Source of the DNA: Stropharia rugosoannulata
Taxonomy: Eukaryota; Basidiomycota; Agaricomycetes; Agaricales; Strophariaceae
Direction: 5' to 3'
Length of the DNA stretch: 64,000 nt
Assembly: GCA_028532985.1 (NCBI GenBank)
Contig: JANCIK010000013.1
Span: 1,364,001 to 1,428,000 of the forward strand
Shown here: positions 26,862 through 53,520 of the stretch, piece by piece
Layout: the number at the start of each line of letters is the position of its first letter
Position numbering within the stretch: position 1 is the stretch's first letter
The notes under the pieces: generated by a model
Databases searched by the model: none
Seen by the model: only the letters and a program-made list of their open reading frames with translations
What the model was told of the DNA's origin: nothing
Made by a program: the position numbers and the translations under genes

Positions 26862-29800
26862 ATGCGCCGTGTCCGTATAACCCAGCACAATGTTCCAAAT
26901 CAAGCTGGTGGCATCCAGATAGAAGAGCGGGACCATAGAGGAAAGGTCATTACAAAGAAGCGCAAACGTGGTGGGGAACCCATTGCAGAGAATGTAGCAC
27001 TGACTATTCCTGCTATTCCTGCTATTCCAGATGTTCCACCAGGCTTTGAACCACAGGAAGTACCTGACCGTCTAGACTATGCTGGAGATATAACTGAGGA
27101 TCAGGTTATCGAAAACCTACAAAACTTGGATTTACCAGTATACAGAGGCAAGGTATGTTATATCACCCACATGAATTGCACACTGCATATATTAAATTGT
27201 GCAGTCGCAAAACGATTTTCTTAGAGAATGGCTGGTCAGAAGGGATACCCACTTGAAGATTGTGATGGCATCTCATGCACCTGCCAGAGGGATCGATACA
27301 TGCAATGCTTGCAATGCACCTGCTGCCAAATGGAAGTGTAAGGCATGCTTTGGAGGACGACTCTTATGCACGACATGTTGCTGGCAGATTCATGATTTCA
27401 TGCCATTTCATCGTATTCTTCGTTGGGATGGTAGTGCTTTCACACCGGCGGCACTATGGCAAGTTGGTGTAAAGCTTCATCTTGGCCATCAAGGAAATAG
27501 ATGTCCTAATACAATGGTCGACTACAACAACGTACAGGAAATGCAAGAGGGAGAATATGGCGATGAACATGAAAATGATCTCCGCCGGGCTTACAATGCC
27601 GGTCTGCAACCCGAAGCTGAGGAAGTCGCTGATGAATACATTGATGAAGACACAATTGTCTTTGATATTGATGTTACTTACCCTCAAGTCTTACCGAGGC
27701 CAGCCCAAAATGATACCCATGGTAATCCATTTGTCACAATTGTCGAGGTGAATGGCATTCATCACCTGCCGGCTGTCAAATGTCACTGCAACAATCAGCC
27801 GCCGGAGGATAGCCAATACATGCAGCTGGCACTATTCCCAACCTCCTTTGATGTGATCAAGACTGTATTCACATTTGCTGTTCTTCGGGACTTCAGGCTG
27901 TCTAACCTGGAGTGCAAGACATCTGCATATCAGTATTACACAAAGCTCCGCCGGTTGACCTGCCCTGCCTTCCCACAGGCAGTATTGGATCGATATCGTG
28001 AGCTCCGCCGGCTCAGTAGACAATTTCGGAACATGAAGATGTGGACCATGCATGGCAGAGCACATGGGCTATGGCAATCAGAACCTGACCCACCAGCTAT
28101 CCCCGATGTCCGGATCCTGGCTGACAATGAAATACCAAATGAGGATATTATGCCTCCACCAGTTGCAGAACAGTCTGAATCAGACAGTGAAGATGGGGCA
28201 AGTGAAGACGCCGCCGGTGGCACCGCCGGAGGGATTAAAACGACACCATCGATGTACGGCGATATACTGGCTCTATTTTGCCCTGCTTGTCCTCAACCAG
28301 AAATTAACCTCCCTGAAGACTGGAAAGAGAATGACAAGAAGTTTCTTTTTATTCGCAAGTACTGTGCTGATGGGAATTTCAAGGCTGACCATTTAAATCA
28401 AAAGAATGCCCATGATGATATTGATCTGACAGCCGGCCAGGCATTCATGACAGCCGCCGGTCCATACCAGGAGCATTTGAAGGATGCCAAAAAATATTCC
28501 AGGAAATTCAAGGAGCCGCCGACTTGCCATTCTCATCGTGCCCAGCTTGACAGTGAAAAGGTTGTTTCTGGCCGCCGGGTCAGAGGGATTGGTGTACAGG
28601 CATGTGCAAGACACGGCTGCTTCTGTCCAGGCAGCCTTGTTGACTTCGAATTGGGTGAACGTCAAATGTGCATGGACTACAGTATTTCTGAAGCACTCAA
28701 GCATACCAACACCGGCGGCATCGAGACTGTCATGTTCATTTATGACATTATGTGTCAGTTCTACAAGAATATGACTAGGCGATTTCGACTAATGAAGGGT
28801 CTCACTTGGCCACAAAGACTTCGATGCATACGCGCAGTGGGTCTCTGGCATGTACATGGCCACAAGACAGAATGTCTATATAGATGGGCATCTACCTATA
28901 TCCCTGGTGTTGGCATGGTAGACGGAGAAATCCTGGAAACCCTGTGGAGCCTGCTAAACAAGACATCTCGCAGTGTTCGGACTGCAACCGCCGGCCATAG
29001 AGCTGAAGTACTCGATGATCACATGGGCGATTCTAATTGGAAGAAGACGGTCAATATGCCATCTACAATCATCAAGAAATATATTCGAGCAGTGAATCAA
29101 GAAATTGATGCTATTGTGTACTATAATGATATTACCGCAAGTATGCCGGCGGATAAACTGCCAGAATGGTTGGAACAGATCGAGGCTGCTGAACGCCGCC
29201 GAGATGAGGACCCAGAAGCAATGGACATTTATCGACCGGCTGTTCAGAAGGCTGCAACGATGCGAGAAATTGAGGTGCAGCTTTCAGAGAATGAAATTCG
29301 AAACGGAGAGACCGGCGGTCGAGCTGTATGGCTCTCACAGGGTATTCAAGCTGAGCAAATGCAGTGCGTAGTGTCAATCATTATTACCAGCCAATTTATT
29401 CATTATTTAGAAATGAATTGCGGTCCCATGTCCGCCGTATGCCTGGAGACCCAACAGTGGCTCAGCGTCAGGATCTTGTACGCCGCCGGCACACACTTCG
29501 CAAGCAGCTGGACAAATTTTCTCGCAATGCAGTTGACATCATGGGCATTGATATTTTGAATTCTTTCAATGATGAACATGATGTTCCCATCCTGGATGGT
29601 GCACAAACGGATGAAGAAGCAGAGGTGGCCAATGAAGAAGTCAGTAATGCTGACCCAGAAAGGCAGCTAATGGCATTCCCTTCTGAAATCACCGAAGAGA
29701 TTTTGACATCCGCCGGTGCATCTGCCCAGGATAAATCTATGCTCTGCCGGTTACAGAAAACAGAGCTAAAGATCAGAAAAGCTCATGCTGATGATTTATT

Positions 29801-35270: not shown

Positions 35271-36570
35271 TCATTTTATGCTTTTAAACATATTCACATT
35301 AGGCCAAGTGCTATGAGTATTTGTATAGTCTGCCATTGTAGACTTTGAGTGAAAGACAAGACAAGTCCGATCCCCTTTACAGTATGCACTGTGAACAACT
35401 ACCCTGCTCGATAGGGCAACTATTGTTCCGGGCCGATAATGAAGATCCAAGCCCAATCCAGGCAGTGACATTGTCCCCTTCTTATAAGTCCCCAAACTGA
35501 TGACAATGTCGAACATCGAGTGACTGCCGCCGGTGTCACGATGCGGTGGTGAGTCTCTGTTGTTGATCACTGTGAGCACGCCAAAAGGCACATTCCCGTG
35601 TTCCAATAGACTCTTCAGCTCTTGTCCATGCCGAACCTGGTCCGGGTGTTCACCTAGCCATGTCAGCATCCTGAGACCGGCGGCATATTGGCTAGGATTA
35701 ACCACACTTAGTAGACCACCCACAAGGGCAAAGAACATATGTTGTTGTCGAAGCCATGTAACACCGGCGGCCTTACGGATATTTTTGCTGACAACTGGCG
35801 GTAACGACATCTGGACACATTCATCAACTCTTGTATTTACAATTATAGATAGACCTACCCCATAGCCCATTTCAAACCATGCTAAGGCAAGACTCACATT
35901 TCCTGGCTTCCTCCAGGCTGCCTTCTGATGATAATTGGCCAGGCCACCTCTCCAGTCTGAATTATTTCTTGTGGTCTTCATTAATGGGGTCAGTTGATCT
36001 AAATTCTCCCATAGACCGTACTGGCCGGCGGTCAGACGGTCAGACCTCATTGTGCGCAACAATTGTCATCACCTACCTGCATATACGACATCATGGCATT
36101 AGGTAGATACCATACCAAAATATTCCCATCCCTATCTGTTACAATGCACGGTGTCTTAATGTATCTCTCCTCCATAAATATAGGCGGAAACTTCTTCAAC
36201 ATTTTTTTCTCAACAGCCTCATTCTTGCCAGTCTGTTTATTTGTCAAGCTCTGAATGTAGTCATGTACATTCCATATAGTTGAATCTAGCATATATCAGT
36301 AATGTCCTTTAAAACACAGGTAAGTCCAGGCTCACATTGGTTTTGATATGCCATAACTAGTGTATCAACAATATCATTACATTCCCATATTAATTGTGCA
36401 GCCCATGACGATGGGGGGGAATTAATTTTAGTCTGATTAATGCGGCAACGGACAGATGTCTGTATGAATGAGGATAGAGAGGCTGTCAGATCAATAGGAC
36501 TATTGTCAGAAGTGGGTTGCATGGTGGTTGAGAAGAAAGGTGTCAACGAACGGGCCACAGGAAAATTCAT
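35271..36570 (-). CDS. TET/JBP-family 2OG-Fe(II) dioxygenase
   Basis: Three minus-strand exons (36336-36570, 36077-36285, 35271-36020) total 1194 nt, 397 aa, phases matching. The C-terminal domain has the Fe(II) site: His and Asp of P-H-R-D-T-G-G near residues 308-310, then G-T-M-S-L-P-G-L-G and P-G-T-I-V-A-L-S-S, the distal His of V-V-H-S-A-Y near 358, and a following G-D-R whose Arg would bind 2-oxoglutarate. Animal TET enzymes oxidise 5-methylcytosine and JBP hydroxylates thymine. The fungal branch is established as KDZ-associated and presumed to act on 5mC. The gene sits against the right TIR. Substrate and activity are inferred. All key residues look present. Confidence 0.85.
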
Positions 36571-45100: not shown

Positions 45101-45290
45101 GCTGACCAATCCATCTCGCGATACAGTGCGTGCAGGCACTTATAGTCATGATGCTCGCGTGCTGATAACTATAGACTACGAGACAGGCTCCACTCTAGTC
45201 CCTCTTGTGTTTTCCTGCGCACACCTATCCCTTTAAGGGAACTTCTGATGATTTACATCTGTAGCCAAAAAGCAGCCCTGTCACTGCAAA
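42110..45290 (-). mobile_element. family-C LTR (C2), interrupted by palindromic element
   Basis: LTR reading leftwards from about 45290 (RC of ttggctacagatgtaaatc...) to 42110. The two parts, 45048-45290 and 42110-43050, become contiguous and align with C1 when the insertion 43051-45040 and one CTATGCT are removed. LTRs flanking an intact element should be direct repeats; here C1 and C2 are inverted. Confidence 0.75.
43051..45040. mobile_element. 2-kb palindromic (foldback) element
   Basis: Flanked by a 7-bp duplication CTATGCT (43044-43050 and 45041-45047). Ends are imperfect inverted repeats (CACCAGTAGCTGTCCC.. against CAACCATGGTGGTTAC..) with a shared tagttgcccag block. Inside lie arms 43192-44017 and 44075-44900, 826 bp each, with no net indel and one mismatch found in the parts I compared, around a 57-bp spacer (44018-44074). 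It encodes nothing convincing. Transcription would give a very long hairpin RNA. Non-autonomous DNA transposon; superfamily not assigned. Confidence 0.9.
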
Positions 45291-45441
45291 CATGTCACAT
45301 TCCACAAAACTCAAAGCTGCACATTCTTGAACATGAAAACGCTTACCAGCACTACATATATTCAAATAATTAAATCACATCCATTTTTGATTAATCTCCT
45401 GCCTTATCAAAAATTGTGCATAAAACAGTCAAATTTGCAAA

Positions 45442-47950
45442 TCATTCATACATAAAAATACAAGCACTGTCATTCAGTTTCTGTATCTGGCCATGTCTCC
45501 ATTCTTCACAATCAAAGTAAGCACCAATTTCTTCTACAGGTTTGGGATAATGTCACAGTTTTATCAAATAAAAAAATTTCATGGCAACATACCTTGAATA
45601 CAACATGTCACACATATCAGGGCAGCAAGTAGTGGGCACTTATTTACCCTTCAGATATCCTTCTCCCCTACATATATGCAACATTATCAGCATTATTAAA
45701 TAAGTAGTTAATAACACACATAGCTAATTCCAAATCCCTTATTTTCTCTTCTTTCTATGCAACCAAAGTTATGTAAGATTATATACAGCATGACTAGAAG
45801 AACATAAAAATACTTACATACTGTAAATATATAAATCATGTGTCACAGTTGGACTAGACATATAGGATAAATAACATACATACTAAGAATGAAAATATTA
45901 ACTGAATAAATATAATATTCATCATAATTAATAGAAGTGGACTTAGACATACTTTATGCTAGAGATACAATTAGTAGACAGTATCTCAAATAAACAGAAT
46001 ACTCACTTCCTAGAAATAATGGAAATATAGGAAATGTTGTTAATAGATAATTTTTGATTGAATGGATAATATATCTTACTATCTAGATATAAAGCAGTTA
46101 GATTAGAAAATATAGCTAAAGAAAATGTTTCTTACTTTCTGGATATTATTAGTCAAGGGAATGTTATAATCAAGATTATATAGCTTGTTCTTGGCACACA
46201 TACCTTCTGTAAAGAAGTAGTAAAATGGGAAGGAAAGAATAATCAGTTATGTAGAATAACTTACACGCTTAGAGTAGGGCCAGGTTAATGACTTGATTAA
46301 TGTGCCATGATTAATTTCAAAGACTTTCACATACCCACTTCAAATTATTGCCACAAATTAGTATCCAATAAAAAGATAATAAAACTTTGTATTGCTTACA
46401 TCCTGTATTTGAGTGGAAGAAAATACTTGTCAGAATCTCCATGGAAATTAGTTAAACAGGTACTTGCATCCTAAAAGCATAAATTATTTGATTAAATCCA
46501 AGTAAGCTATGTATAATAGTAATGACTTACCTCCTAAGTTTGGATACAAGTCATTTAAATGTTTGTTAATTTGGCATATCTTCCATTGAAAATGGCACAT
46601 ACTTCCTAAATAGCAACATTAGCTTGGAATATATAAATTCATGACCACATACCAACTAATACCAGAAATTACATGTAATGCAAATGAGAGCATAGTTTGC
46701 TATAAAGCAGGTCACATACATCCTACAGAGTCATGTAGTCAGTAATATGTACTTCTGAAACAAATGGTTTGATACATACATTCTAGGTAGTGATATATAA
46801 CACCACATTAGACTGATTCTTAATAGAAAGTGATGTAGACATACAAGCTAGAAGCAAATAAACAATCAATACTTGATACATATCATAAAGATGCAAGATT
46901 TTGTTTACCTTCTAGAAGCAAAGTCCAGGCAGTAAATAAAAATCAATCATGTTTGGAAAAGCTTACATACTCTCTAAATAAAAATTGAATGTTTTATTTA
47001 TTGGCTGCATCCATTGAAATGTACTTACCCACTAGAAAAAATGCCCAGAATGTATAGAGTTAGTGACTTCATGCAGCATACTATGTTATATTGCACCTAC
47101 TTCCTGTGGAAATATAGTCAAGGTTGTGTCAAAACTCAGAGCACAACTGTGAAAGCCTTCTTACTGTTCTTGTTACCATTAATAAGAATTTCCAACCACT
47201 CCCATAGTAATTACTCTGGAAAATTATTACATGCCGTCCTTCCCACAAAAATAAATTATATTAGTAACTCCTTAAATCCCTGACTCTTATTGGAGTACTC
47301 ACTTGTATCAATGGTCCCATATTTTGTTGTTGTTTTTGAATATGATTGATCTTGTTTCCGAAGAAGCAAAAGTTGTGTATATAATTCACTAGAAATTTTA
47401 CGCCTATAACGTGATTTTTTGATATTTCTAATAGTAAGATGCATCAATAATTTTGTTTGAATAAACTGCTGCTTGAGGAAAATGTACATGTCTCTTACAT
47501 TTCAGGTGTGAATGTATAGGATTTTATGGTATCTGCATGTTCACCGACTTTATTGGCAAAGACCTCCCACTCTTGTAAAGTGAAATGTCCCCAAAGGTTA
47601 ACATTTTCGTAGGGACCTGTTCAATTCCCGTTGTCAGTTGTAAATTTGTGAGTAATTTTGTGGTTGCAAAACTTACTAAGAGTTGTAAGGGACGCTTGAA
47701 TGGCTGCCTCTAAGACCTGTCGTTGTTGGTTGTTCAACCAATTATTTATAATAACAAGGTCGGCGAGTCTGATGACGGTTTGAAAAAAGCTCAGGCTAGA
47801 GCGCAGACTATCAAGCAAATCATCACTATTTCCATCCTGGAATGCAGACGGTGCAGTCTCATGAACTGCTCGAAGAATTTCGAAGGAGACGTTGGCGGCA
47901 GAAACTGCGTTGACGGATGAGGTTGGCAGCAGGGGGAGTAATGGGAGCAT
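45442..47950 (-). CDS. micro-exon gene: 28-exon model with twenty 3-nt exons
   Basis: Minus strand. Exons 1-4 are 47677-47950, 47499-47616, 47303-47427 and 47177-47238. Twenty-one micro-exons follow: twenty of 3 nt and one of 6 nt (45953-45958). The three last exons are 45720-45754, 45648-45667 and 45442-45533. The total is 792 nt, 263 aa, and every phase fits. Micro-exons begin at 47101-47103 (GAA) and 47029-47031 (TGG) and end at 45818-45820 (TAT). Each is a whole codon in phase 0. They follow YAG or AAG acceptors and are followed by GTATGT, GTAAGT, GTAAGC, GTAAGA, GTGAGT, GTAGGT or GTAAAC donors, with one GCAAGT. Most introns in the array are 47-73 nt. The encoded segment starts E-W-Y-K-L-N-D-L-E-E and ends R-K-K-I-E-H-K-Y-Y, a charged helix running into K-E-E-K-I-R-D-L. 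I recognise no family. Alternative: one 1.4-kb intron replacing the whole array would also keep frame. Confidence 0.75.
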
Positions 47951-50900
47951 TGTGAGATGGGCAGCCGAAACCGATATCTGAATACACTTATAGGAAGATT
48001 ACACGCCGTCCGTCAAGTGATGCCCTGCGTCATATTTCATTGTCCGAAAATAGGCTTCGTTCTTTCCGACATACATCAAAAGAAATAGGTACAGACTCTG
48101 CGGCGGCTTGTGGCATAGGGAGTATCTCCTCACCTGGCAATACCTGCCACAGTGTCGGACAGAGTACAGTCGCAGAGATATCGAGAAATTGTAGCATAAA
48201 CTGTAACGGCGAGCGTCTCGACACCCCGTATATCTATACTTGGGTGTACTACCATGCAGTGCCATCGAGCCGTTCTCACCGCACGTCAGCTTATTTTTGC
48301 TCACTCCAATTCATACCCCGTATCGAATGGTGGACAGACCCAGCTGGATGCCGTTTTATTTTGGTGTAACGAGTAGGTACTTGCATTTCCGGTGACGATG
48401 GGCCGGACGAAAACGTCTCAGTTAGTAGACGGGGACACACTCCATAGTATAGCCGTGTGCTCTCCTGCGGACAGGGGCATAGAGTTAAGTCCTCAGGCCT
48501 CGTATGCTATATATAACACCTACCGCGTTCTTGATACATATATTCGTGTTGGTGTGATGAGTAGCCGTTTAGTATTGATAGAAATGCTACTATATGACCT
48601 GTACATCCTGGATTCGGATCTGCGGCGAAGAGCTTTAGATATAATGAGCGCCATGTTTTCCTGTTCACAGTTCTAATGCACGGGGCACAGTGCCACAAAC
48701 AGTGTCATAGTTTGCGGCAGCAGACATGAAGACCGCGGACCGCCCTGCCTCTCGAAAACATACCAATTAAATTGTATCATGCCTTTTTTCCACCGTCTAG
48801 CCTATCCTTGCCCGAGACTGGCCAACAATCAAGTAATGAGAACCGTTCTGATAGGCCCCTTTGCCTGAGCATAGGCATGCAACGAAGCTCAGGGCGAGAC
48901 ACATCAAAGTAAGAGGTTTGTTTTAATTCGGCGCTCAAATGGAATCACGAGGGGTTGTTTCCCTACATGGAGAAATTCATATTAACCATTACATACTCAG
49001 ACATGCGGCACTGGCACTCACTCGACGAACGCGACGCTGTACTCAGGCTTCCGATCTTTCGTGCGATGTAGACATCCGCGCGTGGCGACACCCCCGTATC
49101 AGCGAACCTCGTGGCGATTTTGACACTGACGACGGTGGACAGTGAAGCTTCAAGCTTCAAGGGGTATACGTCACTAACTAAGCTGCTGAGGTTCTTGAAG
49201 GATGATGACTCGTGAGTTCTGGTCACATTTGAAGACCCGTTAATTGTTCATGCACAAAGTATGAACCTAGGAGGCATGGGACGCGCCGTGGCTGGATCGA
49301 GTGCGGCCGGCAGATATGGATTTGAGGTACTGTCAGCAGGCGAGGTGCAGAGCATTTGGTATATAGCACGAGGGTAGAAGGTGGACATTCCTGTGTGGAA
49401 TCGACGCTCGAGAAACGAACGAGGTCCGGCGCGTGGTTATGCTTGATGCATCGTACTGAGTCTGCTAATCCGGTGGGGATGGGGACTCATAGGGCGCGCT
49501 GTACGACAGCTTGTCATTCCTGTAAGGCATTGGTATACGAAAAACATATGGAACAAAGAGATCACTAACCATGACCTTGTGAAGTATAGAAAATAATTAC
49601 GGCTGCGTCCAGACTTATTCAAGACTCCTGCCAGTCGGGTGCATCTTGTCTCACGAGTACTTTTGGAGTACTTAGTCCATGTCGTCGTGTTGCGTGCAGT
49701 CCCTATCGCGCGAGTTCTCGCGTCGCCCCGCCGTTCTCAGCGCATCCTGATCACCCAGCATCGTTCATCCCTTATCGGACCCGCCCTCGCCCCTTTAACC
49801 CGACGGTCCCGCCTGTCCCGCTTCAGGGTACCGTCTGCATCCGTCTACCCCCTCCCACAGCCGCCCACGCGCCCTAGCACCCCGACCAACACGCATACAC
49901 ACCATTGGCGCGTCCGCAACCCTCCCATGTCCTCCTATTCACGCTAGCTGCCTGGGGGCCAAGAAGCTCTCAATTGCGAAACAATGCGAGTGAGAGTCCT
50001 ACTCAGGTGTAGGTTGAGGTTGAACTGGATGACTGCGTACAGAACGGCTATGACTCACCTCGATGTTTCCATATAGATAGCTTTCCAGGGAACCCGGCCA
50101 GCATACCAAGTCAGCGACACTGTGGGCGCTTAAATATATGTGCTTGGCAGTAACTCTGATGCCATTTCAAACCGTGGGAAATAAACGCTGCACGGAATGC
50201 TAAGTACGTCTCTCCAAGGGGACACTGTCAACAACCAAAGCATAGGCGCGGATGCCAATCCAAACACGTGCAGATGGCATAGCGCATGCGCAAGTGATTA
50301 ACCTTTGCTTGTGTCTCCATCCATTCCCTTCCTCCCCGGCTCGCGGTCGACAGCTTGCGTTTTGCTGTATCTGCTTAGCTTTGATGCCGTCTTTGCCCTC
50401 GTTCAATCACAGGACGTCGACGACCGACTTCCGTCCGCACCCAGTACACCCGCAGTGACCTCCTTTGGACGCGGTCTTCAAGCCGGAAGATGCAAGGCTC
50501 AGCTCGTTCACTATACTACTTACTGCCCGCCGCCGTTCATTCACGCGCCCAAATGCCCTAGACCATTGCATACACAGACGTGTTCGAGTCGAGCCAAGAA
50601 CTTACCAGATCGCCTTCGAAGGGACGCATGGGCACGCCATTCTCTGCTCGACGTCTATGCATTGCATACGAGTGACGCGCGACGGGCCAGTGGCCGTGGC
50701 TGAGGCCCGAGGGCAGCTGGCAAACTTCATGGACGGTCGTACTACTAGACCCGGCGAGCGGAAGGGGAGGAGTAAATGGTACTGGAAAGTGTATTCTATG
50801 GGGAATGAGCCGGAATATCTTACTGTAACTTTGCGGAGTAAGTATTTTATCTTACGGCTGTCTCCAAGTTCATCATATACTAACCATTAACCTGTTTATA

Positions 50901-52284
50901 TAGAGTGTAGTCGCCAAGTGCACAACTGCGTTTGTCACTGAACTAGAATACATTCGGCGTCACTCTCGAAGAGAACACCATGAAAGTCGCTGAACTCGAC
51001 AGCACAAGCATCGCATAGGGCATGCGCAAGTGATATACCGGGCCTTATGCTTATGCAGCATGCGCTTTGTATCCGACAGCTCGCGTTCCGCTGTATCTGC
51101 TTAGTTTCGAGGCCATCGTTCCCCTCCAGCTCCTGTTTACGAGCCGTTGTCGACAACACCGTCCCCTCGCCGCGCCATGTCGCATGTACGACTCAGGGAC
51201 TTCGTCAACATCCTCAAAGATATTCCTATTCATGCTCCCTGTCCTCCTCGCTCTGGGAAGCCAGATGCTCTAGTATTTGTGCATCCGCGGCTCCATGCCT
51301 TTTCTCTGAGTACACTCTTCTCTCTCCAAGTCCACACACAACTACCTCCTTCCACTTGCGACCTCAGTGAGGGAGTCAAGACCTTACTAGATCGCCTTCG
51401 AAGGCACTCCACAACCAACGTCATTTTCTGCTCAACGTTTATGCTTGATTCTTGCATTGCATAGTACGAGTAACGTGCGACGTATCAGCGGCCGTGGTTG
51501 AGGCCTTAGCCCGAGTCCGAGTGCCTCCAGCAGGGCATGCATCGTCGTACTACCAGGTTCGGGAGGGCAGTTGTATCAGTGGGTAGGGCAAGCGGGAGGA
51601 GTGAGCGGTACTACTGGCTAGGTACTGGCTGAAGCGGGACGTAGGTAGACATACTACGATTTCTACCTTGCCCCTGGGCAGCGTCGAAAATCGAGAAACA
51701 CCATCCGATGCGCAGGTCGGCGACGACAACTACTCTTCTGTACTCCGCCCCCTGCGCGCCGGATTAAAGCAGACAGGCAAGCGTCGAAGCGGGATCCTTC
51801 CCCCGCTTTTGTACCCGTAATATCCGCAGTCAGCTCGCGCAGCCGCTTACTGGCACGCCCAGTCTCCCACTCTCGCGACTGCTGACCGGGACTTACCTGA
51901 CCCTTCCTTACTGCACCGTATCCGCAACTATGACCTTAGTGTCCCGTTATGTACGCATCCACACCCAATCCGAGTCCCCTTCGCCCTCTCCATGTGTCTC
52001 TATTCTTCCGGGCGTCATGCCAGATCGCGACGCGATGCGATGCCCCTTGCTCGGGGATGGGCGACATTTAAGCAAAGCATCGTACACCAGGCAAGAACAT
52101 CTCGAAAATTGGGACTGATTTGTTGCCAACAGATCTGCAGCCGCGGGAGTATTACTCTATATTGCGTGCAATGCAGCCCCGCGGTAACCCGTGCGAGTCA
52201 AGGGCATAGGTGAACTTACTATCGCCTGAGCTCTTGTAGGTGTGTTCGTTTGGTATTCTCCTGTTGTATGCTACTAACGACGTG
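47951..52284. other. no confident gene; degenerate sequence
   Basis: Many short ORFs on both strands, none with a recognisable domain or coherent splicing. A C-rich tract lies at 49790-49940. Blocks at 50268-50770 and about 51000-51610 are diverged direct repeats of each other (for example gctgtatctgcttag and gatcgccttcgaagg occur in both). The region may be decayed genic or transposon DNA. Confidence 0.5.
50268..51610 (+). repeat. diverged tandem duplication, about 740-bp period
   Basis: Two units share an ordered series of short identical blocks (gcgcaagtgat, gctgtatctgcttag, gatcgccttcgaagg, then ggccgtgg-tgaggcc) with considerable divergence between them. No protein can be assigned. Confidence 0.5.
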
Positions 52285-53520
52285 CAAGCATTTGGTCAGC
52301 GCGTCTCTTCAAGACAGTGAAACGTCGCTGCCGCAATGGACTCCTTGTCATCAAGATATTCGTTAAACCTGACCCTGGTTTAACCTTGAGGTCATATCAG
52401 CGACGATTGAGGAGTGAGTCCCGAAACCTTGCATTTGGGGGCCGATATATAACACATCTTGGTAGTGGACAGAGAGGCACTACTTGACATCACCAATGTC
52501 TATAGCTATCAGATCTTTGTGGAGACGGAGAAAGCTGGCTATATTATCAGGCAATGGATGACAAGCAATCTGTATGACCGTATCATGTAAGTATACCTTG
52601 TTGCATAGGAATATTTACTAAATGTTCGCAGTACCCGACCATTCCTCAGTGTAGTAGAGAAGTTGAAGTAGATTTCCTTCTAACTCCTAAATGCCCTACG
52701 CGATGCACGCAATAGAAAGGTTTCCCATGGAGATATTAAATCAGAGAACATTCTCGTCACGTCTTGGAACTGGATTTACCTCACAGATTTTGCGTCGTAT
52801 AAGCCCACGTATCTTCCGCTTGATGACCCTTCGGATTTCTCATTCTTTTTCGACATGTCGGGGAGGCGTACGTGCTATCTGGCTCCAGAACGCTTCTATA
52901 CTACAGAAAGTAACCCTGAAATCAGCGCGAAGAAATCGAAATTAGCCATGGATGAAGAAGGCAAGCGCGACGGCAAGGTCACAGAAGCCATGGACTGTTT
53001 CAGCGCGAGATGTGTAATAGCGAAATTGCTATTATAAGGGAGACCGATGTTCACTTTGAGCCAGCCCAACAAAGACTACGTTCTACCGATTGCGACCACA
53101 GGTTAGACAGCCCTACATGGCACCTGAAAGTCATAACGATTCCGATGCCCCCATCAAGCCCTGCTTCCAAATCATTCCAGGTCTGTGCTGCCGCTTGCCG
53201 TACTCATTTTCAGCTGAGTTTATACAAAGTCCAGGATATTTTGCCTGTTGAGCTACACATCCCGAATCGCGATTCCAGTTTGCGCGCCCCGTTCGCAACG
53301 GCTGGTTTGCTGCAACAGAAGGTGATTGCTTTCAAGTTTGTAACCAAGAGACAAGCTAATGATACCCACAAAGACGGGCCCGCCCTCATTGTCCTTGCCA
53401 TCGTCACTTCCAACATTCGCAATTGTACTTTACCCAGCTCGAAAGTCCGGGCCCTTGATGTCTTTCTTGCCTTGGCCTGTCATTTGACAGATGAAGCCAA
53501 ACTTGATCGCATGGTTCCAT
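52285..53520 (+). pseudogene. vps15: vps15 pseudogene, kinase and early HEAT part
   Basis: The text follows fungal Vps15 in order: L-V-I-K-I-F-V-K-P-D-P-G near 52345; E-A-L-L-D-I-T-N-V-Y-S-Y-Q near 52470; then the kinase core with H-G-D-I-K-S-E-N near 52735 and L-T-D-F-A-S-Y-K-P near 52780. It continues through R-R-T-C-Y-L-A-P-E-R-F-Y and K-R-D-G-K-V-T-E-A-M-D-C-F-S, and later R-N-C-T-L-P-S-S-K-V-R-A-L-D near 53430 and K-L-D-R-M-V-P at 53500. Two stops lie in what should be W and Q codons (near 52667-52680), and a large segment between kinase and HEAT parts is missing. Introns are retained, so it is a duplicated, not retroposed, copy. It is interrupted at 53520 and continues at 55151. Confidence 0.88.

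Follow-up and report, generated by a model that had tools for sequence, protein, structure and literature searches.

A fungal gene family with a run of one-codon exons that differ between copies far more than the introns around them

Among fungal NLR genes, repeat arrays are known from HET-D, HET-E and HNWD of Podospora. Schistosome MEG genes carry symmetric micro-exons, as does the gene described here, but theirs are mostly longer than 3 nt and are a means of varying the protein through splicing; the exons of aphid bicycle genes are also longer than a codon. Codon-sized exons are already known in fungi: in the excerpts of secondary sources that describe them, the NACHT-ankyrin (nank) NLR genes of Tuber melanosporum (Iotti et al. 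2012) are an expanded family with dozens of alternatively spliced 3-bp exons (PMC3689799, PMC4986451, PMC10197012, PMC9815663). An earlier note on the present locus knew of no such gene described in fungi, a view that these truffle genes overturn on the word of those secondary excerpts. In the same excerpts the likeness covers the dozens of 3-bp exons, the membership of a fungal multigene family, the C-terminal region and a proposed role in recognition. However, neither a NACHT nor an ankyrin domain was found in the present gene, and, compared with the truffle genes as excerpted, codon diversity here lies in the DNA, between copies, with codons exchanged together with flanking intron tracts. 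In Trichoderma, excerpted text describes a single 20-nt microexon in the gene Xlr2 as a regulated switch (PMC11121469); it is likewise a very short fungal exon, but it stands alone and forms no run of codons. Repeat arrays of fungal NLR genes are described, in part of one source, as reshuffled by unequal crossing over, with positive selection acting on a few hypervariable positions (PMC9815663). Reshuffling of units by recombination is the common element; however, the NLR unit in that text is a coding repeat, and here a single codon together with a non-coding intron makes up the unit. Aphid bicycle genes encode insect gall effectors and combine many micro-exons and rapid protein evolution with a slowly changing gene structure, and the sampled text of that report does not mention a run of one-codon exons (PMC9168663). 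Finally, arthropod Dscam has hypervariable exons that, as in the present gene, act as interchangeable parts, but in the excerpt these are large and spliced in a mutually exclusive manner (PMC3364881). In the open-licence literature, neither a basidiomycete case of codon-sized exons nor codon reshuffling was found among the matches listed. What is new here is apparently another phylum, other proteins and a diversity that is visible in DNA.

The window, a stretch of 64,000 nt from Stropharia rugosoannulata, corresponds to C13:1364001-1428000 of a 48-Mb genome in 20 contigs. One gene runs on its minus strand from 47950 to 45668 and consists of four ordinary exons, a cascade of micro-exons and a last exon (Table 1). 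As the earlier note had claimed, the cascade contains 21 acceptor-NNN-donor units between 47103 and 45818, twenty with a 3-nt exon and one with a 6-nt exon, all in phase 0 and none a stop codon. The introns between these exons are 47-70 nt long; all cascade introns end in AG and all start with GT, except one that starts with GC. The micro-exons of the first gene model stand and its flanking exons were corrected at both ends. Exon 4 ends at 47165 and not at 47177, because the donor GTAAGAAGG is identical in all four copies of the gene. An extra exon proposed down to 45442 was rejected: in the three paralogues its reading is interrupted by indels or by stops in frame (judged by eye), and for this reason the coding sequence most likely ends with the TAG at 45670-45668, which is identical in the four copies. 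The corrected protein that follows from this TAG would most likely have 247 aa (197 + 22 + 28) rather than 263. The summed length of exons 1-4 differs from copy to copy by multiples of 3. Intron 1 (47617-47676, 60 nt) has an in-frame TGA in the window copy; its counterpart in the three paralogues is shorter by 3 nt and seems to form an open frame (both by eye). RNA structure in the lower half of the cascade (45755-46400) is ordinary (z -0.30).

Table 1. Features of the window gene, segments shared with its paralogues, and genes of the second family. Plain numbers are window positions; others give contig and position.
Feature	Position	Strand	Remark
Exon 1	47677..47950	-	start codon at 47950; open frame
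Exon 2	47499..47616	-	
Exon 3	47303..47427	-	second variable patch among the four copies at its start
Exon 4	47165..47238	-	donor GTAAGAAGG at 47164; same in 4/4 copies
Cascade	45755..47164	-	22 introns + 21 micro-exons; 30% GC; CpG 1 vs 31.7 expected
Micro-exon 1	47101..47103	-	GAA (E); unchanged in 4/4 copies
Micro-exon 2	47029..47031	-	TGG (W)
Micro-exon 3	46971..46973	-	AGA (R)
Micro-exon 4	46909..46911	-	AAG (K)
Micro-exon 5	46845..46847	-	CTT (L); unchanged in 4/4 copies
Micro-exon 6	46780..46782	-	AAT (N)
Micro-exon 7	46720..46722	-	GAT (D)
Micro-exon 8	46653..46655	-	TTG (L); unchanged in 4/4 copies
Micro-exon 9	46603..46605	-	GAA (E)
Micro-exon 10	46531..46533	-	GAG (E)
Micro-exon 11	46468..46470	-	GAT (D); next donor is GC in 4/4 copies
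Micro-exon 12	46400..46402	-	GAT (D)
Micro-exon 13	46335..46337	-	TGG (W)
Micro-exon 14	46265..46267	-	CGT (R)
Micro-exon 15	46204..46206	-	AAG (K); unchanged in 4/4 copies
Micro-exon 16	46136..46138	-	AAA (K)
Micro-exon 17	46080..46082	-	ATA (I); a different codon in each of the four copies
Micro-exon 18	46007..46009	-	GAA (E)
Micro-exon 19	45953..45958	-	CATAAA (HK); 6 nt in 4/4 copies; H invariant
Micro-exon 20	45880..45882	-	TAT (Y)
Micro-exon 21	45818..45820	-	TAT (Y)
Last exon	45668..45754	-	ends ...NNADNVAYM + TAG; conserved, pooled pN/pS 0.35
Paralogue-shared segment, overall	45286..52660	-	matches copies on C13
Shared with copy D (1626 kb)	52660-45372	-	A-D common stretch 7.4 kb
Shared with copy C (1614 kb)	50480-45286	-	upstream limit is the extent of DNA compared
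Shared with copy B (1351 kb)	50467-49996 and 49946-45286	-	upstream limit is the extent of DNA compared
Second-family gene	C11:234 kb		40 units
Second-family gene	C11:100 kb		11 units; codons read DDRAWRAWEEA
Second-family gene	C11:346 kb		14 units; codons read DDRAEFRWFDDRRA
Second-family gene	C16:24 kb		10 units; codons read DDQERRAERA
Second-family gene	C9:3203 kb		16 units
Second-family gene	C12:2911 kb		15 units; contig end; match to ULD exon contains a stop

Units were defined by an AAG, CAG or TAG acceptor and a GTRNG, GCAAG or GTAAA donor, a definition loosened after the array had been seen and applied identically to the controls. The longest chain in the region has 18 units with 3-nt exons, and 21 when 6-nt exons are allowed; across 2000 dinucleotide shuffles of the region, with 3-nt exons only, the longest chain was 2, and other exon lengths from 0 to 12 gave chains of at most two on both strands of the window. 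Twenty of the 22 donors are GTRNG, and the remaining two are GCAAG and GTAAA. The introns had been said to share no obvious likeness, and this holds in an all-against-all comparison (best pair p 0.23), where their mean similarity is slightly above the null (p 0.005). Recent tandem duplication of the window introns was considered as well and is unsupported, the mean similarity being weak only.

A genome search with protein and DNA recovered four copies, all on C13: copy A in the window and copies B, C and D at 1351, 1614 and 1626 kb. All 84 micro-exons are present in the four-copy alignment, with equal positions and lengths, and intron length varies between copies in 9 of the 22 introns, always by non-multiples of 3. 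When introner-type spread was looked for, with a search that skips very common words, the gene's DNA matched its own four copies only. The protein collection yielded no relative at E 1 or better, either for the full protein (474 candidates) or for exons 1-2 of the four copies (best 8000 candidates), and solved structures gave no usable match. When an early spliced model (273 aa) was scanned against Pfam, nothing exceeded the cut-off, DUF7709 (E 0.14) being the only match. No NACHT domain was detected in this model, nor on C13 among the matches listed (at least 51 in the genome), and ankyrin repeats were found neither in the model nor in copy B from exon 3 to the end. A 780-bp block adjoins the segment shared by copies A and D and occurs also beside copy D (C13:1620.6-1621.4 kb); it holds most of a kinase-domain fragment (window 52684-53034; Pkinase E 6e-5, below cut-off), which we take to be VPS15-like.

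Variation among the four copies is concentrated in the micro-exons, where 40 of 66 sites are variable compared with 166 of 1323 in the cascade introns (pi 0.376 vs 0.068); elsewhere, exons 1-4 vary at 98 of 570 sites, the last exon at 11 of 87 and the 3' flank at 30 of 247 (all these site counts exclude columns with gaps). Taken pair by pair, copies differ at 16-32 of 66 micro-exon sites and at 70-102 of 1326-1338 intron sites, a ratio of 4.6-6.5 in all six pairs. For the twenty 3-nt exons, the three exon bases vary in 15, 11 and 11 of 20 cases, each base of the adjoining AG and GT in 0 of 20, and the remaining positions out to about 20 nt in 0 to 5 of 18-20. Variation stops exactly at the AG/NNN/GT bounds, which makes it almost certain that the codons are retained by splicing and translated. 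Moreover, the 88 codons include no stop, with 6.6 expected from a permutation of the bases at each codon position (P 5e-5 over the four copies, which are related, and 0.03-0.39 per single copy). None of the 47 distinct codon pairs is synonymous, nor is any of the 16 single-base pairs. In 47 of 132 comparisons of a codon between two copies, two or three of its bases differ. In the micro-exons, which offer few synonymous sites, the pooled values are pN 0.41 and pS 0.19; exons 1-4 are weakly constrained (0.09 and 0.12; pN/pS 0.77) and the last exon is constrained (0.05 and 0.15). In upstream DNA without an evident gene, 7-28% of the sites in each 150-nt bin are variable, roughly as in the introns. 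The introns are therefore under no special conservation, and the codons outpace the background. To account for this excess, one needs selection for change, selection that has kept old variants, or raised mutation.

The history of the copies differs along the gene. Seventy-one sites divide them two against two, and 31, 21 and 19 of these back the three possible groupings. Sites of like grouping cluster (45 like neighbours vs 23.8 expected, p 1e-4), also when the micro-exons are left aside (34 vs 20.0, p 2e-4), and 11 of 12 micro-exon sites have the same grouping as the flanking site closest to them. Between 46810 and 46180, the introns of copies C and D show 10 differences in 595 positions, compared with 18 in 211 and 31 in 395 beside this tract, whose limits were chosen after the partitions had been seen. 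Micro-exons 6-15, inside it, have identical codons in C and D in 9 of 10 cases, compared with 4 of 11 outside. Across all pairs, flanks diverge by 5.1% where the codon is shared (n=46) and by 8.1% where it is unshared (n=80; p 0.0036). Codons thus travel together with intron tracts, and the four copies are mosaics.

The codons also show a regular pattern along the protein. When the 22 codon positions are ranked by how many residues the four copies show, a sharp 100-degree period appears (permutation p 1e-4), and the period of conservation is still seen when the 4 preceding and the 8 following residues are added to the array (p 0.001, best angle 98). Invariant positions 1, 5, 8, 15 and 19 share one arc, with p 0.05 only in a 13-angle scan. 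With every exon included, the conserved codons thus lie on one helix face, and the micro-exons are replaced far faster than the introns while this face is kept constant. The hydrophobic moment is uneven in the window family (p 0.42, 0.79, 0.025 and 0.039) and in a second family described below (p 0.047, 0.90 and 0.09 in three near-identical copies, above 0.99 in the arrays on C9 and C12); a helix in the 40-unit array of that family was dropped as a candidate (p 0.20). The helix is not universal across copies and arrays. It nevertheless seems likely to us, from the DNA, that this is a real four-member family with a C-terminal helix encoded one codon per exon, and that the architecture serves to diversify the helix residue by residue.

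The alternative that survives best, which we regard as unlikely, is that the codons are optional and that one gene gives many isoforms by in-frame skipping. Each of the 21 micro-exons has a length divisible by 3, and the frame survives whichever of them is skipped; none of the 22 introns of the window copy can be retained without a stop or frameshift, and the truffle genes, in the excerpted secondary sources, offer a precedent. However, the conserved helix face is clearest with full inclusion. Versions lacking one codon have a weaker period in 19 of 22 cases, the exceptions being the last three codons, and versions with one codon inserted do so in 21 of 21; because skipping or inserting one codon mostly weakens the helical period, the selected product most likely includes all codons. 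Each copy's DNA, moreover, already holds the codon diversity, and the donors show no general weakness. Constitutive inclusion fits the conservation better than does the ladder of length and charge that the earlier note had proposed.

Exchange of codons by recombination, the reading that we prefer, can be followed further in a second family. Two successive CAG-NNN-GTATGT motifs, separated by one gap, were searched for in the genome, with 44 matches forward, 0 in reverse and 0 in the control; the 44 matches fall in six genes. The unit of these arrays is one intron plus one codon, arranged in tandem and mostly 70-72 nt long. Units were located by anchors like GTATGTGATCC, of which there are 115; nine without an AG before the codon were dropped, and three of these nine are TAA and lie beyond the array in the three near-identical copies. 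The 106 kept codons include no stop, with 2.7 expected (P 0.04), and codon pi is 0.50-0.66 vs an intron pi of 0.10-0.16 (modal-length introns only, 80 of 100). Two of the six genes, with exons joined, match the ubiquitin-like domain ULD_2 (PF22893) at 34.8 and 37.1 bits (cut-off 24.5), and single exons of the family stay below the cut-off for this domain. All six loci found with one ULD exon carry an array. In a search for introner-type spread that skips very common words, the unit DNA matched its six arrays only, and a profile comparison gave a probability of 0.5% for a relation with the window-family protein, the profiles being shallow (4 and 2 sequences).

Three copies, those at C11:100 kb, C11:346 kb and C16:24 kb, have flanks with an identity of 98.8-99.5% across 2.0-2.3 kb upstream and of 99.3-99.6% across 0.8-1.5 kb downstream (best match per pair), and they differ in unit number (11, 14 and 10) and in codon order. 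In these three copies, with the first unit of each array excluded (32 of 35 units), the codon is linked to the intron half on each side (p 5e-4 each) and to the intron middle (p 0.004). Linkage to the intron halves is also found in the 40-unit array (39 of 40 units; p 0.004 and 0.0015; intron middle p 0.23); on C12 only the upstream side is significant (14 of 15 units), and on C9 neither side (15 of 16 units). The simplest reading of these arrays is that recombination within introns rejoins codon cassettes, as the linkage would suggest. Further motifs were searched in the same way. The CAG/GTAAGT pattern matched four times, on C9 and C12, each time in an ACA unit that is repeated; there, pairs of CAG-ACA-GTAAGT units about 60 nt apart (C9:413001-417500 and C12:2749 kb) are identical between the contigs. 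A TAG-NNN-GTAAGT pair is present in three identical copies about 10 kb apart (C3:261, 272 and 282 kb) and is probably a repeat, and the CAG/GTGAGT pattern has no match in the genome. Such pattern searches sample some splice-site letters only, and other arrays may have been missed.

As a mechanism, it is proposed that recombination in introns, by crossing over or gene conversion, would treat each codon as an exchangeable cassette that is always in frame, and single residues could then be added, removed, reordered or swapped without breaking the frame. In the window family, exchange would now occur between paralogues or alleles at the same position and not between neighbouring units, because its introns have diverged. 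Recombination alone only reshuffles; for new codons to arise, either old variants must be under selection or mutation must be raised. The codon variants might be kept because novelty is selected for, as it would be in a protein of recognition or allorecognition. Alternative splicing may add to recombination but is not needed.

Both families are depleted in CpG and draw on few codons. The cascade has 1 CpG in the window copy and 2 in each of the other three, with 32-34 expected, and exon 1 is near expectation (11-15 vs 14-16). Arrays of the second family have 10-23 CpG vs 35-53 expected, and 17 vs 146 expected. It is our guess that methylation of the arrays lies behind this loss. No codon ends in C, either among the 88 of the window family or among the 106 of the second family, because a C before the GT donor creates a CpG; distinct codons number 20 and 22, respectively. 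This narrow alphabet without a final C could point to targeted hypermutation, in which a process edits the codon between AG and GT and leaves the introns untouched, and the codon rate above background and the frequency of two- or three-base codon differences are consistent with such a process. However, the missing C fits avoidance of CpG before GT, and codons of the near-identical second-family copies share flanking haplotypes, as recombinational copying predicts; we consider hypermutation very improbable. Hardly credible at all is a single 1.4-kb intron or a decayed gene with NNN units arisen by chance, which would suit a protein without known relatives but is rejected by the 18-unit chain against at most 2 in the shuffles, by units that are equal in four copies, by excess variation limited to three bases per unit with no stops, by the constrained last exon and by exons 1-4 that are in frame in all four copies.

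Under the recombination reading, the whole might be a germline diversity generator, in which intron recombination edits a recognition segment residue by residue, safely in frame, and which would have arisen in two unrelated families; we judge the chances of this to be evenly balanced. Exon shuffling usually means the movement of domains, and the shuffled unit here would be one codon. If this is true, extreme intron density would have a concrete reason, as a supply of frame-proof recombination points, a small multigene family could build hypervariable sequence without protein repeats, and the isolated truffle report would become an instance of a recurrent strategy. The exon sizes suggest, moreover, that such genes are likely to be misannotated by gene finders that bar 3-nt exons. 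Elsewhere in the window, a KDZ transposase that has CxC2 lies at 27196-29556 and an oxygenase domain of the TET/JBP type at 35271-36065. Such families would point to an Agaricomycete, and so would the matches to STE3 (22) and to hydrophobins (46) that the genome contains, each exon being counted separately.
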